Of a stretch of 38,757 nucleotides of DNA, positions 1,385-27,369 are shown in pieces; the first letter of the stretch is position 1; each line of letters opens with the position of its first letter. Position numbers and translations under genes: made by a program. This DNA is from Verrucomicrobiia bacterium (GTDB lineage Bacteria > Verrucomicrobiota > Verrucomicrobiia > Limisphaerales > DASXHY01). Under the pieces are notes generated by a model. That model was not told where the DNA came from, did not search any database, and worked only from the letters and a program-made list of their open reading frames with translations. Where the stretch lies: positions 1 to 38,757 of the forward strand of contig DASPIL010000051.1 of the NCBI GenBank assembly GCA_035629175.1. The letters run 5' to 3'.

Positions 1385-1555
1385 GTGGCGGCGGGCATCC
1401 TTGCCTGCCGTGGAGCCGGGCTTCCAGCCCGGTGGAAGGAACCTAAAGCGAAGCCGAGCACCTTCACCGGATCCGAGCGTCCGTTTTGCTTAACGGTTTT
1501 TCCGGGCGGCAAGGATGCACGCCCTCTACGTCAGGCAAGATGCCTGACGCCACTC
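1385..1555. repeat. Structured intergenic repeat, long copy 1 (about 171 bp)
   Basis: This block matches 25827-25999 closely along its length, with the best conserved parts at both ends, and its first third matches 14362-14420. It contains three nested or adjacent foldback units. GCATCCTTGCC at 1395-1405 is the inverted complement of GGCAAGGATGC at 1508-1518. A small hairpin, CCGGGC-TTCCA-GCCCGG, lies near 1416-1432. A perfect 9-bp stem, CGTCAGGCA-AGA-TGCCTGACG, lies at 1529-1549. The short ORFs that cross it are incidental translations of the repeat. It sits between the divergent start of the exported-protein gene (1340) and panD (1691). The repeat has no transposase and looks like a REP/MITE-like non-autonomous element. 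Confidence 0.85.
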
Positions 1556-3251: not shown

Positions 3252-5516
3252 ATGAAGCACAGTTATAGGCACGTCGCCCTTGCGGCTGTGCTGCTTATCG
3301 GTTTTGCCAGCACTGCCGCCGCGGCAACTAACGAGGGATGGGACGAACGATTCGGCCGTCCAGGCGTGAGTCCGGTGACGCTGATCTCAATGCAGAACGC
3401 TCTCTACGCAGGCGGCAGGTTCGCCAGCGCGGGGGAAGTCGCGGTCAACGGGGTCGCGCGCTGGGACGGGACCCGATGGTCACCCGTGGGAAGCGGCGTC
3501 ACGAATGATACCGGGCCCACGTTTGTGAACAGCCTGGCAACCGACGGTGAAAACCTTTACGCGGCGGGAAGCTTCAACCGGGCTGGTGACAGTCTCGCGA
3601 ACAATGTGGCTCGATGGAACGGCGCGAAGTGGTCAAGCCTTGGCTCCGGCGTGCAAGGCACGATCCACACCATAGCGGTCGACGGCGGGTACGTTTATGT
3701 CGGAGGCAGTTTCTTCATCCCGTCGATCAACGCTTCCAACATCGCCGTGTGGACCGGCACCGAGTGGCTGCCCCTTGCGACGAATCTCACGCTTACTTTC
3801 GGAGTACCCATTGTCCGCGCGATTGTCGTGGATACTGACGGCGTTTACATCGGTGGAAATTTCACTTCGATCGACGGCGTGACAGCAACAAACGTCGCAA
3901 AGTGGAACGGCGCCGGCTGGGCACCCGTTGGAACCGGCATTGGAACTCCGGGGCATCAGGTGATTTCGCTCGCCGTGTGGAACGGAAGTCTTTACGCCGG
4001 TGGCAGCCTGCCCAACGGCAACGTTGCCCGTTGGGATGGCAGCACGTGGTCGGCACTCGGAACAGGGGCCGACGGCACCGTTCTGACCCTGTTTCCAAAC
4101 GGAAATGAGCTGTGCGTCGGTGGATTCTTCGACAGCGCAGGAGGGGTGAACGCCGGTCGAATTGCCCGCTGGAATGGGACGGAATGGAGCGCGTTCGAAC
4201 CTGGAATCGATCCCAGTTCAACGGGAGCTGCGTACGCGTTTGCGTCGTGGAATGGCGGACTCTTTGTTGGCGGAACATTTGCACGCGTGGGCGGCGGGCT
4301 CACAGTGAACGGCATTGCGCGCCACGACGCGAACGGGTGGACTGCCCTGGGTGGCGCCTTGAATAACTTCAGTGACGTCCGCGCAGTGACCGCCGCGGGC
4401 AGCAACGTTTATGTCGGCGGGCTCTTCTTCCAGACAGGTCAGGTGCTTGCCACGAACATTTCGCGTTGGGATGGCAGGAGATGGTGGCCGCTCGGCACGG
4501 GAGTGAACGGCATTGTCTACGCCATCGCTGTTGACGGATCCAATGTCTACGCCGGCGGCACATTCACGCGGGCGGGAAACGTAACCGTCACGAATCTGGC
4601 GCGCTGGAACGGCGCCGCCTGGTCGTCCGTAGGCGCAGGCGTGAACAACACGGTGAACGCCCTCGCCGCGCGGGATGGCGTGCTCTATGCCGCAGGGCTG
4701 TTTACTTCGGCAGGCGGCGCGCCTGCAAATCGCGTGGCACGATGGGATGGAACCAACTGGTTCAGTCTTGGAGCTGGCTTCACGACAACCGTCAATGCGC
4801 TATGCCTTGCTGGCACCAACCTCTACGCGGGCGGATCCTTTGCCGCCGGCAATCCCGGGAATCGCATCGCCCGCTGGGACGGCAGTGCGTGGTTCCCACT
4901 CGGATCGGGACTCAATAACGCTGTATCCGCGATCGTGGCCATGGGTGACAGCATTTACGCGGGAGGCAGTTTTCAACAGGCGGGCGGTTCCGGCGCCAAC
5001 CGCGTCGCGAAGTGGGATGGAACAAGTTGGTCCCCGTTGGGCGCAGGATTGAACAACTCCGTCCTCGGCCTTTCCAGCAGCCTTGGAAATCTCTACGCGG
5101 CCGGAACATTCTTCCAGGCAGGCGGCTCGAATGCCACGCGCGTCGCTCGATGGGATGGCGTCGAGTGGCATCCGCTCGGCAGCGGCGCAAACAATATCGT
5201 TTCAGCCATCGCGGCGGTCGGAACGAACGTGCATGTGGGAGGCACCTTTCTCAGCGCAGGCGGGAAGCCTTCGCTTTATTTTGGAATCTGGCATCCTCCC
5301 GTCCCCGAAGCGTTTATCTCGGCACAATCCGGCGGCATCATCGTGACATGGACAAGCGAGCCGAACCAAACCTACCAGCTTCTTTCCACCACGAATCTGG
5401 GCGCTGGTTTTTCTCCACTCGGGGAAAAAGTGACTGCATCGGCAGACAGAACCGCGGCGACGAACATCCCGGTTTCCGAATTGCAGTTCTTTCGCGTGGA
5501 ACAAGTCGCGCCCTAG
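3252..5516 (+). CDS. Secreted beta-propeller repeat protein, 13 repeats
   Basis: The 754-residue product starts with a signal peptide (MKHSYRHVALAAVLLIGFA, then STAAAA). It then holds 13 repeats of roughly 45-60 residues. Each pairs a strand like LYAGGSFNRAG with a strand like NNVARWNGAKWSSLGSGV. The repeats resemble Kelch or Rax2-like propeller blades, and 13 copies would be enough for two propellers. The third, sixth and seventh repeats are the most divergent. The last 80 residues form a small beta domain (GGIIVTWTSEPNQTYQLLST ... LQFFRVEQ) of the kind that often ends exported verrucomicrobial proteins. It has no PEP-CTERM anchor or transmembrane end, so it is probably released or held by its C-terminal domain. 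No catalytic residues are visible and the ligand is unknown. It is divergent from the XdhC gene. Confidence 0.9.
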   Translation: MKHSYRHVALAAVLLIGFASTAAAATNEGWDERFGRPGVSPVTLISMQNALYAGGRFASAGEVAVNGVARWDGTRWSPVGSGVTNDTGPTFVNSLATDGENLYAAGSFNRAGDSLANNVARWNGAKWSSLGSGVQGTIHTIAVDGGYVYVGGSFFIPSINASNIAVWTGTEWLPLATNLTLTFGVPIVRAIVVDTDGVYIGGNFTSIDGVTATNVAKWNGAGWAPVGTGIGTPGHQVISLAVWNGSLYAGGSLPNGNVARWDGSTWSALGTGADGTVLTLFPNGNELCVGGFFDSAGGVNAGRIARWNGTEWSAFEPGIDPSSTGAAYAFASWNGGLFVGGTFARVGGGLTVNGIARHDANGWTALGGALNNFSDVRAVTAAGSNVYVGGLFFQTGQVLATNISRWDGRRWWPLGTGVNGIVYAIAVDGSNVYAGGTFTRAGNVTVTNLARWNGAAWSSVGAGVNNTVNALAARDGVLYAAGLFTSAGGAPANRVARWDGTNWFSLGAGFTTTVNALCLAGTNLYAGGSFAAGNPGNRIARWDGSAWFPLGSGLNNAVSAIVAMGDSIYAGGSFQQAGGSGANRVAKWDGTSWSPLGAGLNNSVLGLSSSLGNLYAAGTFFQAGGSNATRVARWDGVEWHPLGSGANNIVSAIAAVGTNVHVGGTFLSAGGKPSLYFGIWHPPVPEAFISAQSGGIIVTWTSEPNQTYQLLSTTNLGAGFSPLGEKVTASADRTAATNIPVSELQFFRVEQVAP

Positions 5517-12050: not shown

Positions 12051-13382
12051 GTGCGAGTTCTGTACAACATCCTGTTTTCGATCTTTTTTTTGCTGTCGGC
12101 GCCCTATTACTTTTTCCGTTTATGGCGCCGGGGAAACTGGACCCGCGGCTTCGGCCAGCGCTTCGGCGCTTATGACGCCAAGGTCAAGCAGGCCATCACC
12201 AACCGGCAGGTGCTCTGGATGCACGCCGTGAGCGTTGGGGAAGTGAATGTCTGCACCCAATTGATTCGCGCCCTCGAACCGCGCGTTCCCAACCTGAAGA
12301 TCGTGGTTTCCACCACAACCACGACGGGCATGGGCGAACTGCAGAAAAAGCTCCCAACCCACATCACCAAGATCTATTACCCGATCGACCGCCGCCCCTA
12401 CGTTTCGCGCGCGCTAGGAACCATTCGCCCCAAAGCCGTGGTGCTCGTCGAGGCCGAGATCTGGCCCAACTTCCTCTGGCGCGCCCGTGATATCGGAACC
12501 CCGCTCTTCCTGGTTAACGCGCGGCTCTCCGAGCGATCCTTTCGCGGATATCGTCGCTGGAGTTTCATCTTCCGCGATCTCTTCGCCTCGTTCACAGCGA
12601 TCGGAACCCAGAATGACGCAGATGCCGCGAGGTTGCGTGAATTGGGTTGCCGCCCTGAAGCAATCCACGTCGTTGGCAGTTTGAAATTCGACGCCGCCAA
12701 GCTCGACGAAAAACGCGTTCTCGATGTTCCACGGATGCTCGAGCAACTCGGCGCCCCAAGAAACCCGCTGCTGCTGGTCTGCGGGAGCACGCATGCCGGC
12801 GAGGAAGCATTGCTGGCCGAAGTTTTCCAGCGCCTGAGACAAACCTTCAGCAACCTGTTTCTTGTATTGGTTCCGCGGCACTTCGAGCGGGGAAAGGAAG
12901 TGGGACGCGAATTGCAGGCGCGCGGTGTGAAATTCATCTTCCGCAGCGAGGTCACTTCAAACACGCAGCTCAAGGCAGGCGATGTCGATTGCCTGCTGGT
13001 GAACACAACAGGCGAACTCAAATACTTCTACGAGCACGCCACTGTGATCTTCGTTGGAAAAAGCCTCAAAGGCCAGGGCGGCCAGAATCCGATCGAACCC
13101 GGCGCGCTCGGAAAAGCCATGGTGTTCGGCCCGCACATGCAGAATTTTGCGGATATCGCTCGCAGCTTTGTCGAACAGAAGGGAGCGGTCCAGGTGCAGG
13201 ACGGACCAGAACTGGAAACGGCGCTGCAAACCTTGCTTCAGGACCCGAAACACCGCGAGCTGCTTGGCCGTAATGCCCGCCGCGTCGTCCGCGAAAACCT
13301 CGGGGCAATCGAGCGGACCGTTGACATGATCGTCAACAACCTGAAGGACAAGGACATTTATATCCGCGACCCGCTGGCCTAG
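12051..13382 (+). CDS. waaA: 3-deoxy-D-manno-octulosonic acid transferase
   Basis: WaaA (KdtA) is the inner-membrane GT30 enzyme that attaches Kdo to the lipid A precursor, so the host makes LPS. The 443-residue product has an N-terminal membrane anchor (VLYNILFSIFFLLSAPYYFF). The acceptor-side domain carries VLWMHAVSVGEVNVCTQLIR, STTTTTGMGELQKK, YYPIDRRPYVSRAL and VVLVEAEIWPNFLW, with the glutamate known to be catalytic in this family. The GT-B donor domain carries LLVCGSTHAGEEALLAEVFQ, VLVPRHFERGKEV, FVGKSLKGQGGQNPIEPGAL and GKAMVFGPHMQNF. The start is GTG 12051; no strong ribosome binding site is visible. Its stop overlaps that of convergent metF. Confidence 0.97.
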   Translation: MRVLYNILFSIFFLLSAPYYFFRLWRRGNWTRGFGQRFGAYDAKVKQAITNRQVLWMHAVSVGEVNVCTQLIRALEPRVPNLKIVVSTTTTTGMGELQKKLPTHITKIYYPIDRRPYVSRALGTIRPKAVVLVEAEIWPNFLWRARDIGTPLFLVNARLSERSFRGYRRWSFIFRDLFASFTAIGTQNDADAARLRELGCRPEAIHVVGSLKFDAAKLDEKRVLDVPRMLEQLGAPRNPLLLVCGSTHAGEEALLAEVFQRLRQTFSNLFLVLVPRHFERGKEVGRELQARGVKFIFRSEVTSNTQLKAGDVDCLLVNTTGELKYFYEHATVIFVGKSLKGQGGQNPIEPGALGKAMVFGPHMQNFADIARSFVEQKGAVQVQDGPELETALQTLLQDPKHRELLGRNARRVVRENLGAIERTVDMIVNNLKDKDIYIRDPLA

Positions 13383-14266
13383 GCCAGGCGAAGGTGTTGT
13401 AGCACGCGAACCGTCGAATGTGACTTGTTCAATGTGTAGAAGTGAATTCCCGGAACACCGTTACGCAACAGGTCCTCGCACTGTTTCGTGGCATACTCGA
13501 TCCCAAACTCCGTCGCCGCAGCATCATCCTCACTGAGCTCATCCAGGCGTGCGGACAAGGAATCCGGGATACAAGCGCCGCACATCGCGGTGAAACGCTT
13601 GATTTGGGAAGCGCTGAGAATCGGCACAATGCCGGGCACGAGCGGAATGGTGACGCCCAGTTCACGGGTGAGGTGCTCGCGGAACTCGTAGAAATCGGCG
13701 TTATCGAAGAACAACTGCGTTAGGACAAAATCTGCCCCCGCATCGATCTTCGTTTTGAGATGCTTCCAATCAACGTGTTTGCCTTCCTTGCAGGCAACGT
13801 GCCCTTCGGGAAATCCCGCCACTCCAATGCTGAAGCCATCCATTTCGCGGATGAATTCCACAAGCTGGCTTGAGAATTCGAATCCGCCTGGCGTGGGCTT
13901 GAACTCACCCCCTCCGGGCGGGTCCCCGCGCAAGGCGAGCACGTTCTTCACGCCGAGAGATTGGATCTGGCGCAGAAGATTTCTAATTTCCTCACGCGTC
14001 GCGGCAACGCACGTCAGATGCGCGACCGCAGTGAGGTGATGCTCCTTCTGGATTCGATCGACGATCATCAACGTCTTGTCCCGGGTGCTGCCCCCCGCGC
14101 CGTAAGTCACAGAACAGTAATCAGGACGGGTCCCTATCAGCGCCGGGATCGTTTTCTCGAGCAGGTTCCGATCGCCTTCCTCGGTCTTGGGTGGAAAGAA
14201 CTCGAAGGAAATGACCGGGCTGCCCTGCCGCTGCTTCTCGGCGTAAATATCGCGAACCAATTTCAT
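13379..14266 (-). CDS. metF: Methylenetetrahydrofolate reductase
   Basis: MetF is the FAD enzyme that reduces 5,10-methylene-THF to 5-methyl-THF for methionine synthesis. The 295-residue length is normal for bacterial MetF. Motifs are ISFEFFPPKTEEGDRNL, YCSVTYGAGGSTRDKTL, TAVAHLTCVAATREEI, NVLALRGDPP, and further on IGVAGFPEGHVAC, GADFVLTQLFFDN and IPLVPGIVPILSASQI. The glutamate of FEFFPPK and the aspartate of RGDPP are the conserved active-site positions. The C-terminus GIHFYTLNKS is standard. Its stop shares a CTAG palindrome (13379-13382) with the waaA stop. The 400 bp upstream hold a partial repeat and a hairpin, but I find no SAM or SAH riboswitch consensus there. Confidence 0.97.
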   Translation of the reverse strand: MKLVRDIYAEKQRQGSPVISFEFFPPKTEEGDRNLLEKTIPALIGTRPDYCSVTYGAGGSTRDKTLMIVDRIQKEHHLTAVAHLTCVAATREEIRNLLRQIQSLGVKNVLALRGDPPGGGEFKPTPGGFEFSSQLVEFIREMDGFSIGVAGFPEGHVACKEGKHVDWKHLKTKIDAGADFVLTQLFFDNADFYEFREHLTRELGVTIPLVPGIVPILSASQIKRFTAMCGACIPDSLSARLDELSEDDAAATEFGIEYATKQCEDLLRNGVPGIHFYTLNKSHSTVRVLQHLRLA

Positions 14267-14361: not shown

Positions 14362-14420
14362 GTAGCGGCAGGCATCCTTGTCTGCCGGAGCCGGAGCTTC
14401 CAGCCCGGCGGAATAAACCT
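14362..14420. repeat. Partial copy of the structured intergenic repeat
   Basis: About 59 bp match the left third of the elements at 1385 and 25827, including GGCATCCTTG, TCTGCCGGAGCC, GCTTCCAGCCCGGCGGAA and AACCT, with a few substitutions. The right part with GGCAAGGATGC and the GTCAGGCA hairpin is missing, so this looks like a truncated remnant. Confidence 0.75.
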
Positions 14421-14447
14421 CACGCCCCCCAGAGCGCCGGAAAATCC

Positions 14448-14469
14448 CCGCTTCCCTCATGGGAAGCGG
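14448..14469. other. Perfect 9-bp hairpin in the metF upstream region
   Basis: CCGCTTCCC-TCAT-GGGAAGCGG forms a compact stem-loop. On the minus strand it is followed by GGATTTT, so it could be a weak terminator for transcripts arriving from the broken gene at 14683-15150, protecting metF from read-through. Apart from this hairpin and the partial repeat, I see no gene or recognised signal in 14267-14682. Confidence 0.5.
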
Positions 14470-17367: not shown

Positions 17368-17712
17368 GCCTTTGCGTTAAGGAACAGAGTTTAACCACGC
17401 AAACCGCGTTTAGCGAAGTACACGAATTTTCACAAATTCCAGAGGAAAACTTTAAACGGATCAACACGGATTCTCAAACCAAGCTCTGAAACGCTGAAAA
17501 CTGAAAGCCATGTCGCTCAGGACAACTAGCGCCGAACGAATATCCGCGCCAGCCGGCATTTGAGCTTTAAGCCGACTGCAAGTCGGCGCTCCGAGATCGT
17601 GCGCGTAAAACACCTCACCCACATTCCCGGCTTTTGCGTGGGGTTATTTGTTTGACTGCCGTTCGGATGCAGGATCTGAGACCTCTGCTATCTCTGCGTG
17701 CTCCTGTTCAAT

Positions 17713-17910
17713 GCTTTTGCGTGAAGTGCTCGGGTTCGCGTTGATTCGACACGGGAAGCCAAACGGGTTTACGCGAATTTTCACAAATTTCTGCTGCCGA
17801 TTTCGTGTGGTTAGTGTGATTCGTGGTTTTCTAATTCTCTACTGACCCGTGGGAACGCGGACTTTTGAACAGGAGGACGCAGAGATAGCAGAGGAAGACG
17901 ATTGGGCAAA
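17713..17910. repeat. Tandem duplication, copy A (about 198 bp)
   Basis: Copy A begins GCTTTTGCGTGAAGTGCTCG and ends GAAGACGATTGGGCAAA. It is followed directly by copy B, which has the same order of blocks: GTTCGCGTTGATTCG, CTGCTGCCGATTTCGTGTGG, TTCTAATTCTCTACTGACCC, GTGGGAACGCGGACTTTTGA. The two copies are near identical apart from scattered changes and the insertion in copy B. Confidence 0.88.
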
Positions 17911-18136
17911 GCTTTGCGTGAAGTGTTCGGGTTCGCGTTGATTCGAAAAGGGAGCCAAACGGCGTTTACGCGAATTACGCGAATTACGCGAATTACGCGA
18001 ATTTGCGCGAATTGCCTGCTGCCGATTTCGTGTGGTTGGTGTGATTCGTGGTTTTCTAATTCTCTACTGACCCGTGGGAACGCGGACTTTTGAACAGCAG
18101 GACGCAGGGATGGCGGAGGAAGGCGATTGGGCGAGG
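17911..18136. repeat. Tandem duplication, copy B (about 226 bp), with 9-bp expansion
   Basis: Copy B repeats copy A but is longer by a run of the 9-mer ACGCGAATT, present four times in succession at 17968-18003. Copy A has a single related unit (ACGCGAATTTTCACAAATT). Copy B ends 80 bp before the GTG of mqnC, so it may contain or displace that gene's promoter. Confidence 0.88.
17968..18003. repeat. Microsatellite: four perfect ACGCGAATT units
   Basis: Four head-to-tail copies of a 9-bp unit occupy 36 bp, followed by a degenerate fifth unit (TGCGCGAATT). The unit number could vary between strains by replication slippage. Confidence 0.9.
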
Positions 18137-25826: not shown

Positions 25827-25999
25827 GTGGCGGCGGGCATCCTTGCCTGCCGTGGAGCCGCGGCTTCCAGCCCGGTGGAAGGAACCTCAAACGAAGCGGA
25901 GCGCGTTGAAGGAATCTGAGTGCCTCTCGCGTGCTTGACGTTTTTTCCGGTGGCAAGGATGCACGCCCTCTGCGTCAGGCAAGATGCCTGACGCCACTC
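25827..25999. repeat. Structured intergenic repeat, long copy 2 (about 173 bp)
   Basis: It is the same element as at 1385-1555 in the same orientation. Shared blocks are GTGGCGGCGGGCATCCTTGC, CTTCCAGCCCGGTGGAAGGA, GGCAAGGATGCACGCCCTCT and GTCAGGCAAGATGCCTGACG. The middle (about 25890-25950) differs most, while the outer arms and hairpins are conserved. It sits between the PerR-like gene start and the porin terminator. Confidence 0.88.
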
Positions 26000-26051
26000 T
26001 CGTGCGGCTTGTTCGTTGCGCGTGGCTTGAAGTTCGGGCGGATGAATAAAT

Positions 26052-26103: not shown

Positions 26104-27369
26104 TTAGAACTTGTAGATGATATTGCCTGCGACCAAAACAGCGTTGCGCTCATTCGGCGCGCCGGAAGTGCTGGCGTTAACAGGAATTCCACCAATGCTG
26201 CCCACGGGAACCTGATTGCCGCCGAACGGACGTGAGCCGTCCACGGCGCGGTCCCATCGAATCTCAAGGCGGCTGATGACGTTCTTCCACAGGTCATACT
26301 GGACCGTGCCGGTCACGCCAATGAGGGTCGACGCCTGCAGGGGGCCGTCACCGGCATCCTGCCAGACATATTCACCGCGGGCATGGAGGCTCAGCTTCTC
26401 AGTTGCCTGGAAGGAGACATAGGTGCCCAGAGCATTCGCCCAGGACGAATCAACGGACACGCCGGCGATGGTCTGTTCTGGAACTCCGAGGTAATCATAG
26501 GCGAAGCCGAGGCGCAGGCCGGTGACGGGAGTCGCGAGCGTCAGGCCGGAGAACAGGTTGATTTGGGTGCCGGAGGCGAGAGGTCCGCCACCGAAACCGT
26601 TAACAACGCCGCCGTAAAGGGTTGATCCGGAAAGGAATCCCCAATCTTCGGGAGCCGTGAGCGAGATTGAACCCATGTAGGTCTTGTAGGATTCAGCCTT
26701 GTACGGATGGGCCTTGCCCGTGCCGACCGGGAATACCGATCCGCCGAGGTTCGCGCCACCGATTATCGGTCCAGTAGTATTCGCAACACCCGCTGACACG
26801 CTGAACATGTCGGAAACGCGATACGTTCCGAGAATGCCCGTGTGAGTCGTGGGTTCGAGCGTAAAACCCCAGGAACGGGTGTAGTTCGGGTTGTTCACGG
26901 AATCGATCGACTCATATCCGACGACCGTGTCGAACACGCCGACCTTCCAATCGATGCCATTGCCGACGGGCATGCGAAGGGCGACATACGCTTGGCGAAT
27001 GGCGAAGTCACTGCCTGCGATTCCGCCGACCGGCGAAGTGCCGAGCAGGTTCGCATCAGGTCCGAACATCGCGTCGAAGCGATACCCAGCGGCCCATTCG
27101 GCTTCGTCCAGCGGCTTTTCCAGGACGAGCTTGACTGCGTTCAGGTTGAAACCGTCGGCTTTGCTCGGCGAATTGAAAGCATAGCCGGGCACATTGCCGT
27201 TACCGGTTCCCAGGTTCCAATGAGCGGATGTATCCACATACCCGCTCAACGTGGTCGCTGCCACAGCAGTCCCGACCGAGCTTAAAGCTGGATCCTGCGC
27301 GTGCGCTGCAGAAGCCAGGCTGACCACTCCGAGAGCGGCCAGACTCATTGTCCATTTATCAAACTTCAT
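26104..27369 (-). CDS. Outer-membrane beta-barrel porin, Bbp2/OmpL-like
   Basis: The 421-residue product has a signal peptide (MKFDKWTMSLAALGVVSLAS, then AAHAQD) and a long run of alternating strands. It starts with TTLSGYVDTSAHWNLGTGNG and NLNAVKLVLEKPLDEAEWAA, typical of the putative beta-barrel porin-2 family. Further strands include FAIRQAYVALRMPVGNGIDW, KVGVFDTVVGYESIDSVNNP and RSWGFTLEPTTHTGILGTYR. The last strand, NAVLVAGNIIYKF, ends in phenylalanine as outer-membrane proteins do. The ATG follows a strong ribosome binding site, GGAGGA, and a structured leader. It is probably a general or small-solute porin; the substrate is unknown. Confidence 0.93.
   Translation of the reverse strand: MKFDKWTMSLAALGVVSLASAAHAQDPALSSVGTAVAATTLSGYVDTSAHWNLGTGNGNVPGYAFNSPSKADGFNLNAVKLVLEKPLDEAEWAAGYRFDAMFGPDANLLGTSPVGGIAGSDFAIRQAYVALRMPVGNGIDWKVGVFDTVVGYESIDSVNNPNYTRSWGFTLEPTTHTGILGTYRVSDMFSVSAGVANTTGPIIGGANLGGSVFPVGTGKAHPYKAESYKTYMGSISLTAPEDWGFLSGSTLYGGVVNGFGGGPLASGTQINLFSGLTLATPVTGLRLGFAYDYLGVPEQTIAGVSVDSSWANALGTYVSFQATEKLSLHARGEYVWQDAGDGPLQASTLIGVTGTVQYDLWKNVISRLEIRWDRAVDGSRPFGGNQVPVGSIGGIPVNASTSGAPNERNAVLVAGNIIYKF

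Follow-up and report, generated by a model that had tools for sequence, protein, structure and literature searches.

The stretch analysed here, hereafter called the window, comprises 38,757 nucleotides and is contig C51 of a 5.41-Mb draft genome (108 contigs) of a Verrucomicrobiia bacterium. It carries two long copies and one truncated copy of a structured repeat, each end of which is a repetitive extragenic palindrome (REP), i.e., a GTRG tag followed by a 9-bp hairpin. Because the two ends are inverted relative to each other, the unit can be classified as a REPIN (REP doublet forming a hairpin). An earlier note on this DNA had placed the long copies at 1385–1555 and 25827–25999 and a truncated relative between them. 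All three are indeed present in the sequence, and the starts of the long copies are correct, whereas their exact ends are 1553 and 25997, each unit running from GTGG to CCAC. The long copies had also been called near-identical, but they share 85% identity (BLASTN). The element is laid out in the window as listed below, where bit scores refer to R1, a covariance model built from 44 full-length copies on a long-hairpin fold, and two-sided changes are those found in the covariation analysis described further on.

1385–1553, plus strand: full-length copy 1 of the four-hairpin REPIN, by sequence and by an R1 match of 189.5 bits (model positions 1–169)
1385–1410, plus strand: outer REP 1 of copy 1, tag GTGG and 9-bp hairpin; two-sided changes in 2 of the 9 pairs of helix 1
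1410–1433, plus strand: inner hairpin 2 of copy 1, with its own tag GTGG at 1410–1413; two-sided changes in 4 of the 8 pairs of helix 2
1504–1529, minus strand: inner hairpin 3 of copy 1, tag CTAC at 1526–1529 (GTAG on the minus strand); two-sided changes in 2 of the 8 pairs of helix 3
1529–1553, minus strand: outer REP 4 of copy 1, 9-bp hairpin at 1529–1549 and then CCAC (GTGG on the minus strand); two-sided changes in 3 of the 9 pairs of helix 4
14362–14423, plus strand: truncated copy, by sequence, hairpins 1 and 2 only; the right limit was set by eye and is approximate
25827–25997, plus strand: full-length copy 2 of the four-hairpin REPIN, by sequence and by an R1 match of 178.2 bits (model positions 1–169)

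The Pfam-matched neighbours of these copies are panD (from 1691), MTHFR (13379–14266) and BBP2 (26104–27369). Judged by them, all three copies are intergenic, as the earlier note had held, although mechanically called open reading frames (ORFs) run across the copies. Copy 1 lies upstream of two genes, namely a minus-strand ORF starting at 1340 (no Pfam match) and panD on the plus strand. The truncated copy gave a profile match at 14362–14462 to model positions 1–105 and scored 26.7 bits with R1.

Read inward, each end of the element presents a GTRG tag, the 9-bp hairpin of the outer REP, a second GTRG tag, a hairpin of 7–8 bp and a variable spacer, and the right half has the same arrangement on the other strand; the spacer between the halves is 70 bp long in copy 1. 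The unit carries four tagged hairpins, two per end. In the 44 full-length copies, the outer tag is found in 36 at the left end (GTRG) and in 36 at the right end (CYAC), and the inner tags occur in 36 (GTRG) and 39 (CYAC) of them. Three right and two left ends failed the tag test because their tag is interrupted by the start of a group II intron. The inverted pair of REPs is what is repeated as a unit, as 44 of the 56 copies in the fetched loci are full length. The pair GCATCCTTGCC / GGCAAGGATGC, formerly taken for the outer arms, connects hairpin 1 with hairpin 3, whereas copy 1 is in fact bounded by hairpin 1 (1385–1410) and the 9-bp hairpin at 1529–1549, which is followed by CCAC.

BLASTN of the genome with the element returned 65 matching pieces, and with a best non-self E value of 9.8e-57 (40 of the 68 candidates were scored), the element is a repeat far beyond chance. 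A profile search of the fetched loci yielded the 56 copies mentioned above, of which the 12 partial ones were left out before alignment A1. With a cut-off of E 0.01, R1 gave 113 rows across the whole genome (each strand counted separately), corresponding to at least 65 distinct places, a lower bound given that 150 of 3024 candidates were scored. The true number is probably higher, since 18 of the 65 are no more than 400 bp from the end of a contig; the element may thus help to explain why draft contigs stop at the same repeat. Six tandem arrays contain 19 of the 65 places, with a start-to-start step of about 175–185 bp and, in the arrays that were inspected, linkers of only about 6–15 bp between successive units. 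The density remarked upon earlier is real in the window (three in 39 kb) but local, as the 65 places average out at about one per 83 kb over the 5.41-Mb genome. Directly 3' of 12 of 50 copies there is also a tail of about 28 nt (e.g., window 25998–26045, L003, and L005), compared with 11 of 1000 random stretches. This tail was considered as a constant part of the unit and rejected, because only 12 of the 50 copies have it and because part of the longer tail seen in two solitary copies recurs elsewhere in the genome.

The four hairpins were further assessed by covariation in alignment A3, which comprises 36 element copies (the best R1 match per locus) from about 34 genomes. L098 and L121 both derive from G187, and L117 and L123 both derive from G012; L124 (the same place as L092) and the second copies of L110, L121, L122, L123, L150, and L151 are left out. 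Across the four local hairpins, 95.7% of 1224 cells hold standard pairs, and two-sided changes occur at 11 of 34 pairs, i.e., in 80 cells as opposed to a shuffled mean of 28.9, with none of 500 shuffles as high. All four helices hold such pairs (2, 4, 2, and 3, respectively), and a control in which the partners were slid by 1–3 columns gave at most 5 two-sided cells. The stems therefore do show the compensatory changes that the earlier note had named as a check. A long single hairpin joining both ends, which was the fold chosen by RNAalifold, reached 90.9% pairing and 34 two-sided cells (shuffled mean 14.1, 0 of 500 as high), part of this signal being expected from the resemblance between the two ends. 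It was rejected as the conserved fold, as the four-hairpin structure is better in both pairing and two-sided changes, and this despite the fact that A3 was gathered with the long-hairpin model, so that the selection bias opposes the four-hairpin result. Furthermore, G-T pairs lie predominantly on the strand that leads with GTRG: 28 to 2 in the outer left hairpin, 12 to 2 in the outer right hairpin (on the other strand) and 10 to 3 in inner hairpin 2. Such polarity would fit selection on the GTRG strand of each end.

REP-associated tyrosine transposases (RAYTs) are single-strand DNA enzymes that are related to IS200/IS605 transposases and act at a tag beside a hairpin. The statement that no transposase is nearby holds insofar as no RAYT was found in the contig (other transposases were not searched for), but the genome does encode one elsewhere: on contig C67, a 224-aa RAYT ORF lies between two arrays of the element. 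This protein matches NF047646 (REP-associated tyrosine transposase, NCBIfam) with 81.7 bits (cut-off 80) and PF01797 (Y1_Tnp) with 31.5 bits (cut-off 23), and 4er8, TnpA_REP, is the sole solved structure that it matches at E 0.001. It carries the HUH motif NHVH, WQ, and YVENNP; the curated family model, the HUH motif and the catalytic tyrosine motif all place it among the RAYTs (TnpA_REP). Compared by eye with Table 1 of PMC6006769, it also displays the motif set of subclass 2.4/group 4 (NH[IFV]H, WQ, YIxNNP). A RAYT gene with copies of the same REP family on both sides supports the earlier proposal of a REP/MITE-type element (MITE, miniature inverted-repeat transposable element) that is mobilised in trans.

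Two further RAYTs of the genome, on C37 and C69, look broken by eye, as NNP is missing from the C37 ORF and the match on C69 is distributed over different frames. Both are surrounded by GGAG-tagged REPs of other kinds than those of the element, and each RAYT of the genome has its own REPs. One REP of this sort lies in the window:

17571–17592, minus strand: single REP of another family with a GGAG tag, found by pattern match; it is of the kind flanking the degraded C69 RAYT (L049) and is not part of the element

The pattern for this REP and its sister kind has 20 exact matches in the genome.

Outside the source genome, R1 finds the element at 1e-12 in at least 31 of the 196 genomes of the order, which is a lower bound because 14 candidates were scored per genome. 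Together with the at least 65 places in the genome itself, this bears out the large verrucomicrobial family that had been suspected. RAYTs are found at 1e-15 in 86 of the 196 genomes, and among the best 80 of 533 matches of a RAYT search, the named records are mostly titled Verrucomicrobia, including Opitutaceae, Limisphaerales, and subdivision 3. A quick tree was built of 101 distinct RAYTs (112 loci minus 11 duplicate proteins) and midpoint-rooted for drawing. It contains a branch of eight RAYTs (L047, L121, L122, L123, L124, L150, L151, and L155) with a support of 98 in the Shimodaira–Hasegawa-like approximate likelihood ratio test (SH-aLRT). All eight adjoin the element at an R1 score of at least 45 bits, compared with only one (L173) of the 93 other distinct RAYTs, the 45-bit bar having been chosen after the scores had been seen. 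At L124 and L155 a match was seen on a single side, and the opposite flank spans only 0 or about 120 bases. The RAYTs of this subclade carry YVENNP or YIENNP, and L124 has WH. A hairpin script detected the GTRG-tagged inner hairpin in seven of the eight loci; at L121, which the script called single, both inner hairpins are visible by eye, with a bulge, and R1 scores 109.8 bits.

A large branch of 47 rows (SH-aLRT 99) shows an inner hairpin beside the outer REP in 34 of its 41 classed rows (27 untagged and 7 tagged), in comparison with 3 of 32 rows outside it (Fisher p 1.4e-10, kinship ignored); the 28 of the 101 tree RAYTs with fewer than two outer REPs were not classed. The trait changes 8 times on the tree versus 28.6 times in shuffles, and when the downstream sequence is shuffled, an inner hairpin turns up in about 0–10% of tries. 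It must have been lost or gained more than once, since six members of the large branch have single hairpins (L169, L172, L177, L179, L180, and L226). Two hairpins per end thus characterise the large RAYT branch, whereas a tag on the inner hairpin characterises the eight-RAYT subclade. Where titles are shown, those of the large branch all name Verrucomicrobiota groups but one. At L156, L126, and other large-branch loci, the untagged inner hairpin follows a short linker, e.g., GGGTT or CTGTATCGC. Because the switch to two hairpins follows the RAYT tree, it offers a natural comparison for studying how a RAYT recognises its ends.

The hairpins are also met by a second mobile element. Nine group II intron 5' ends occur in the genome (G000; L062–L070, on contigs C33, C46, C66, C67, C69, C70, C74, C85, and C107), identical over the 108–126 bases compared, and each begins directly after a REP-type hairpin and GCTA (eight cases) or GCCA (one case). 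Seven of the nine hairpins are ends of the four-hairpin element, and those before the C69 and C85 introns resemble, by eye, other types of REP. The ORF behind the C66 intron 5' end matches a group II reverse transcriptase/maturase model with 356.7 bits (cut-off 300). Rfam gave no match at this locus at E 0.1, and the intron was therefore not assigned to a class. Group IIC introns are known to prefer stem-loops. A structured DNA target is mentioned in the accessible part of PMC10190682. A script applied to the 28 loci that have related reverse transcriptases, the own locus included, located a candidate 5' junction in 13. Hairpin ends lie within six bases of the junction in nine of these 13, compared with 36 of 1120 positions drawn at random; some of the hairpins at the junctions resemble GGAG-tagged REPs. 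In the own locus, the script put the junction 9 bases off, so its misses mean little. The intron uses the hairpins of the element as insertion sites and is thus a clear example of another mobile element that lives on REP hairpins.

What the element does can be approached through its placement, which bears on the idea that it acts as RNA, i.e., as an mRNA 3'-end stabiliser, a terminator or another transcript structure, with its spread being secondary. A transcript of 1380–1560 is predicted to be very stable (about −102 kcal/mol), and REPs have been hypothesised to function in termination and mRNA stabilisation (PMC3733652, in the part available). However, the 30 copies that could be placed on crude home-made gene calls (26 of the 56 are unplaced) lie in 19 codirectional, 8 divergent, and 2 convergent gaps, with one inside an ORF, and the copy-free gaps of these loci number 18, 8, and 4, respectively. 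The gene caller missed panD next to copy 1, which therefore belongs among the divergent cases. Thus, 29 of the 30 placeable copies are outside called genes, as expected of dispersed and mostly intergenic REPINs, and they show neither an orientation bias relative to genes (9 to 10) nor a bias toward mRNA 3' ends. Moreover, four local hairpins of opposite strand polarity are better supported than one transcript fold. A primary role as RNA consequently appears improbable, and the action on mRNA ends that the earlier note had offered as an alternative finds no support.

The terminal inverted arms and the dispersed copies would also suit a MITE of the classical type, which derives from a DDE transposon, is short and has terminal inverted repeats, but the ends of the element are themselves palindromes with GTRG tags, the adjoining enzyme is a Y1 HUH protein rather than a DDE transposase, and the flanks of 26 solitary copies show no target-site duplication beyond that of shuffled flanks. 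Absence of target duplication is expected of Y1 enzymes, and a DDE-type origin is very unlikely. An integron-like array of attC cassettes is hardly credible, even though it shares with the element a palindromic unit in tandem arrays and group II introns at hairpins. The attC core motifs are GTTRRRY and RYYYAAC; they were found near the left end in none of the 44 copies and both anywhere in only one of the 44, and the linkers in the inspected arrays are only about 6–15 bp long.

It is therefore reasonable to assume, with a probability of about 0.87, that we are dealing with a REPIN, which is non-autonomous, has inverted REP ends and is mobilised by the C67 RAYT. We infer its movement from the match between the RAYT branch and the element, the tags and the covarying local hairpins, as well as from the lack of target duplication, the balanced orientation and the copies around the RAYT gene. 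RAYTs are also commoner where the element occurs, being present in 25 of the 31 genomes with it and in 61 of the 165 others (Fisher p 8e-6), an association that is only indicative because the genomes are related and RAYTs of any branch were counted. Several observations weigh against this assignment, in addition to the late choice of the 45-bit bar. Among the rows listed, a RAYT at least 60% identical to that of C67 occurs in only G000, G012, G091, and G187 of the 31 genomes, and for the remaining ones, one has to suppose that the RAYT was lost, that the assembly broke at arrays or that other RAYTs move the element. Conversely, G156 has such a RAYT with a weak element alongside (45–50 bits), yet it is outside the 31. 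No empty site was found, the source genome being the only member of its genus and family that was compared. The solitary copies have diverged (about 73–88% identity to the query by BLASTN), and recent movement is not evident for them. Finally, inner hairpin 3 is without G-T strand polarity (5 pairs follow it and 7 are opposed), and the polarity at the two ends could also be explained by common descent of the two REPs.

If the element is moved by the C67 RAYT, binding, cleavage, and transfer might proceed as follows. Once the element is single-stranded, either end would form a hairpin with GTRG in front of it on the strand read by the RAYT. The HUH/tyrosine enzyme would nick at the tag and excise or copy the unit, which would be re-inserted without target duplication, mostly between genes. 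Tandem arrays might then arise by local unequal exchange or repeated insertion. The inner tagged hairpin would most likely help the RAYT to hold the end by providing a second contact, or it may be a captured neighbouring REP. A bolder extension, which we regard as possible but rather doubtful, is that verrucomicrobial RAYTs with a two-hairpin end need both hairpins of each end as a composite site, the enzyme perhaps acting as two dimers and the inner hairpin setting specificity or coupling the ends. In the subclade, the tag would then have made the inner hairpin a further REP open to cleavage, so that the element would be nested and movable in two sizes, and the intron would have specialised on the hairpins.

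Some further features of the genome and the window should be mentioned. The C66 copy borders a frame for a type I restriction R subunit, whose SWI2/SNF2 match starts at profile position 19–20 at the edge of the element; the copy and the intron lie where the start of this frame is broken, and its other half would be found on the far side of both, outside the contig (L066 and L230). The restriction frame was thus likely disrupted by this insertion, which counts in favour of the proposed mobility. In the window, a block at 17682–18132 contains direct repeats (117 nt at 95% and 64 nt at 86%) and a 30-nt inverted pair, and by eye it bears no likeness to the four-hairpin element. Within the ORF at 3252–5516, diverged repeats of 33–58 nt at 3603–5252 have spacings that are multiples of three, which suggests a repeat protein.

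As far as the literature covered extends, RAYT/REPIN systems have been described mainly in Proteobacteria and with one hairpin per end. At the Rfam gathering score, the window has no match (Rfam alone was compared); a match to a catalogued element was among the refutations that the earlier note had named. Neither the element family nor its four-hairpin form was found in the literature searched, a search that most subscription papers and all supplements lay outside, and the accessible parts of PMC3733652, PMC6006769, PMC2817692, and PMC3116915 contain no description of ends with two tagged hairpins. With regard to the enzyme, the C67 RAYT shares NHVH, WQ, and YxxNNP with RAYT subclass 2.4 (group 4 of Bertels; PMC6006769). 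However, that subclass is described there, in the part available, with long and double-foot REPs, unlike those found here; the words Verrucomicrobi, Opitut, and Pedosphaera are absent from the main text of that paper, as far as it was accessible. The insertion of the intron likewise has a precedent in Pseudomonas putida, where 2 of 9 copies of a group II intron lie in REPs (PMC1525189, in the part available), whereas here all nine 5' ends follow REP-type hairpins, seven of which are ends of the element.

The element itself is closest to REPINs and bacterial interspersed mosaic elements (BIMEs), which, as described in the available part of Bertels and Rainey (2011, PMC3116915), are also inverted REP units that are extragenic, lie near a RAYT and form tandem clusters. 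The difference is that here each end has two GTRG-tagged hairpins arranged head to tail, which makes four per unit of about 169 bp. Verrucomicrobial REPs are not new either, as GTAG-17, -19, and -20 of Opitutus terrae, a verrucomicrobium, have been catalogued (Di Nocera 2013, PMC3733652, accessible part). The GTAG families of that work resemble the present element in the GTAG/GTGG tag, the hairpin, the dimers, the association with RAYTs and even the phylum, and its CGTC-3 dimers of Agrobacterium tumefaciens have spacers with a stem-loop at each end. Compared by description rather than with the sequences of Figure 1 of that paper, the GTAG families differ from the present element, whose ends as a rule each carry a head-to-tail pair. 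Thus, within the parts of these sources that were available, REP dimers, REPINs, tandem REPIN clusters, RAYTs, and verrucomicrobial REPs were already known, whereas the four-hairpin form appears to be new.
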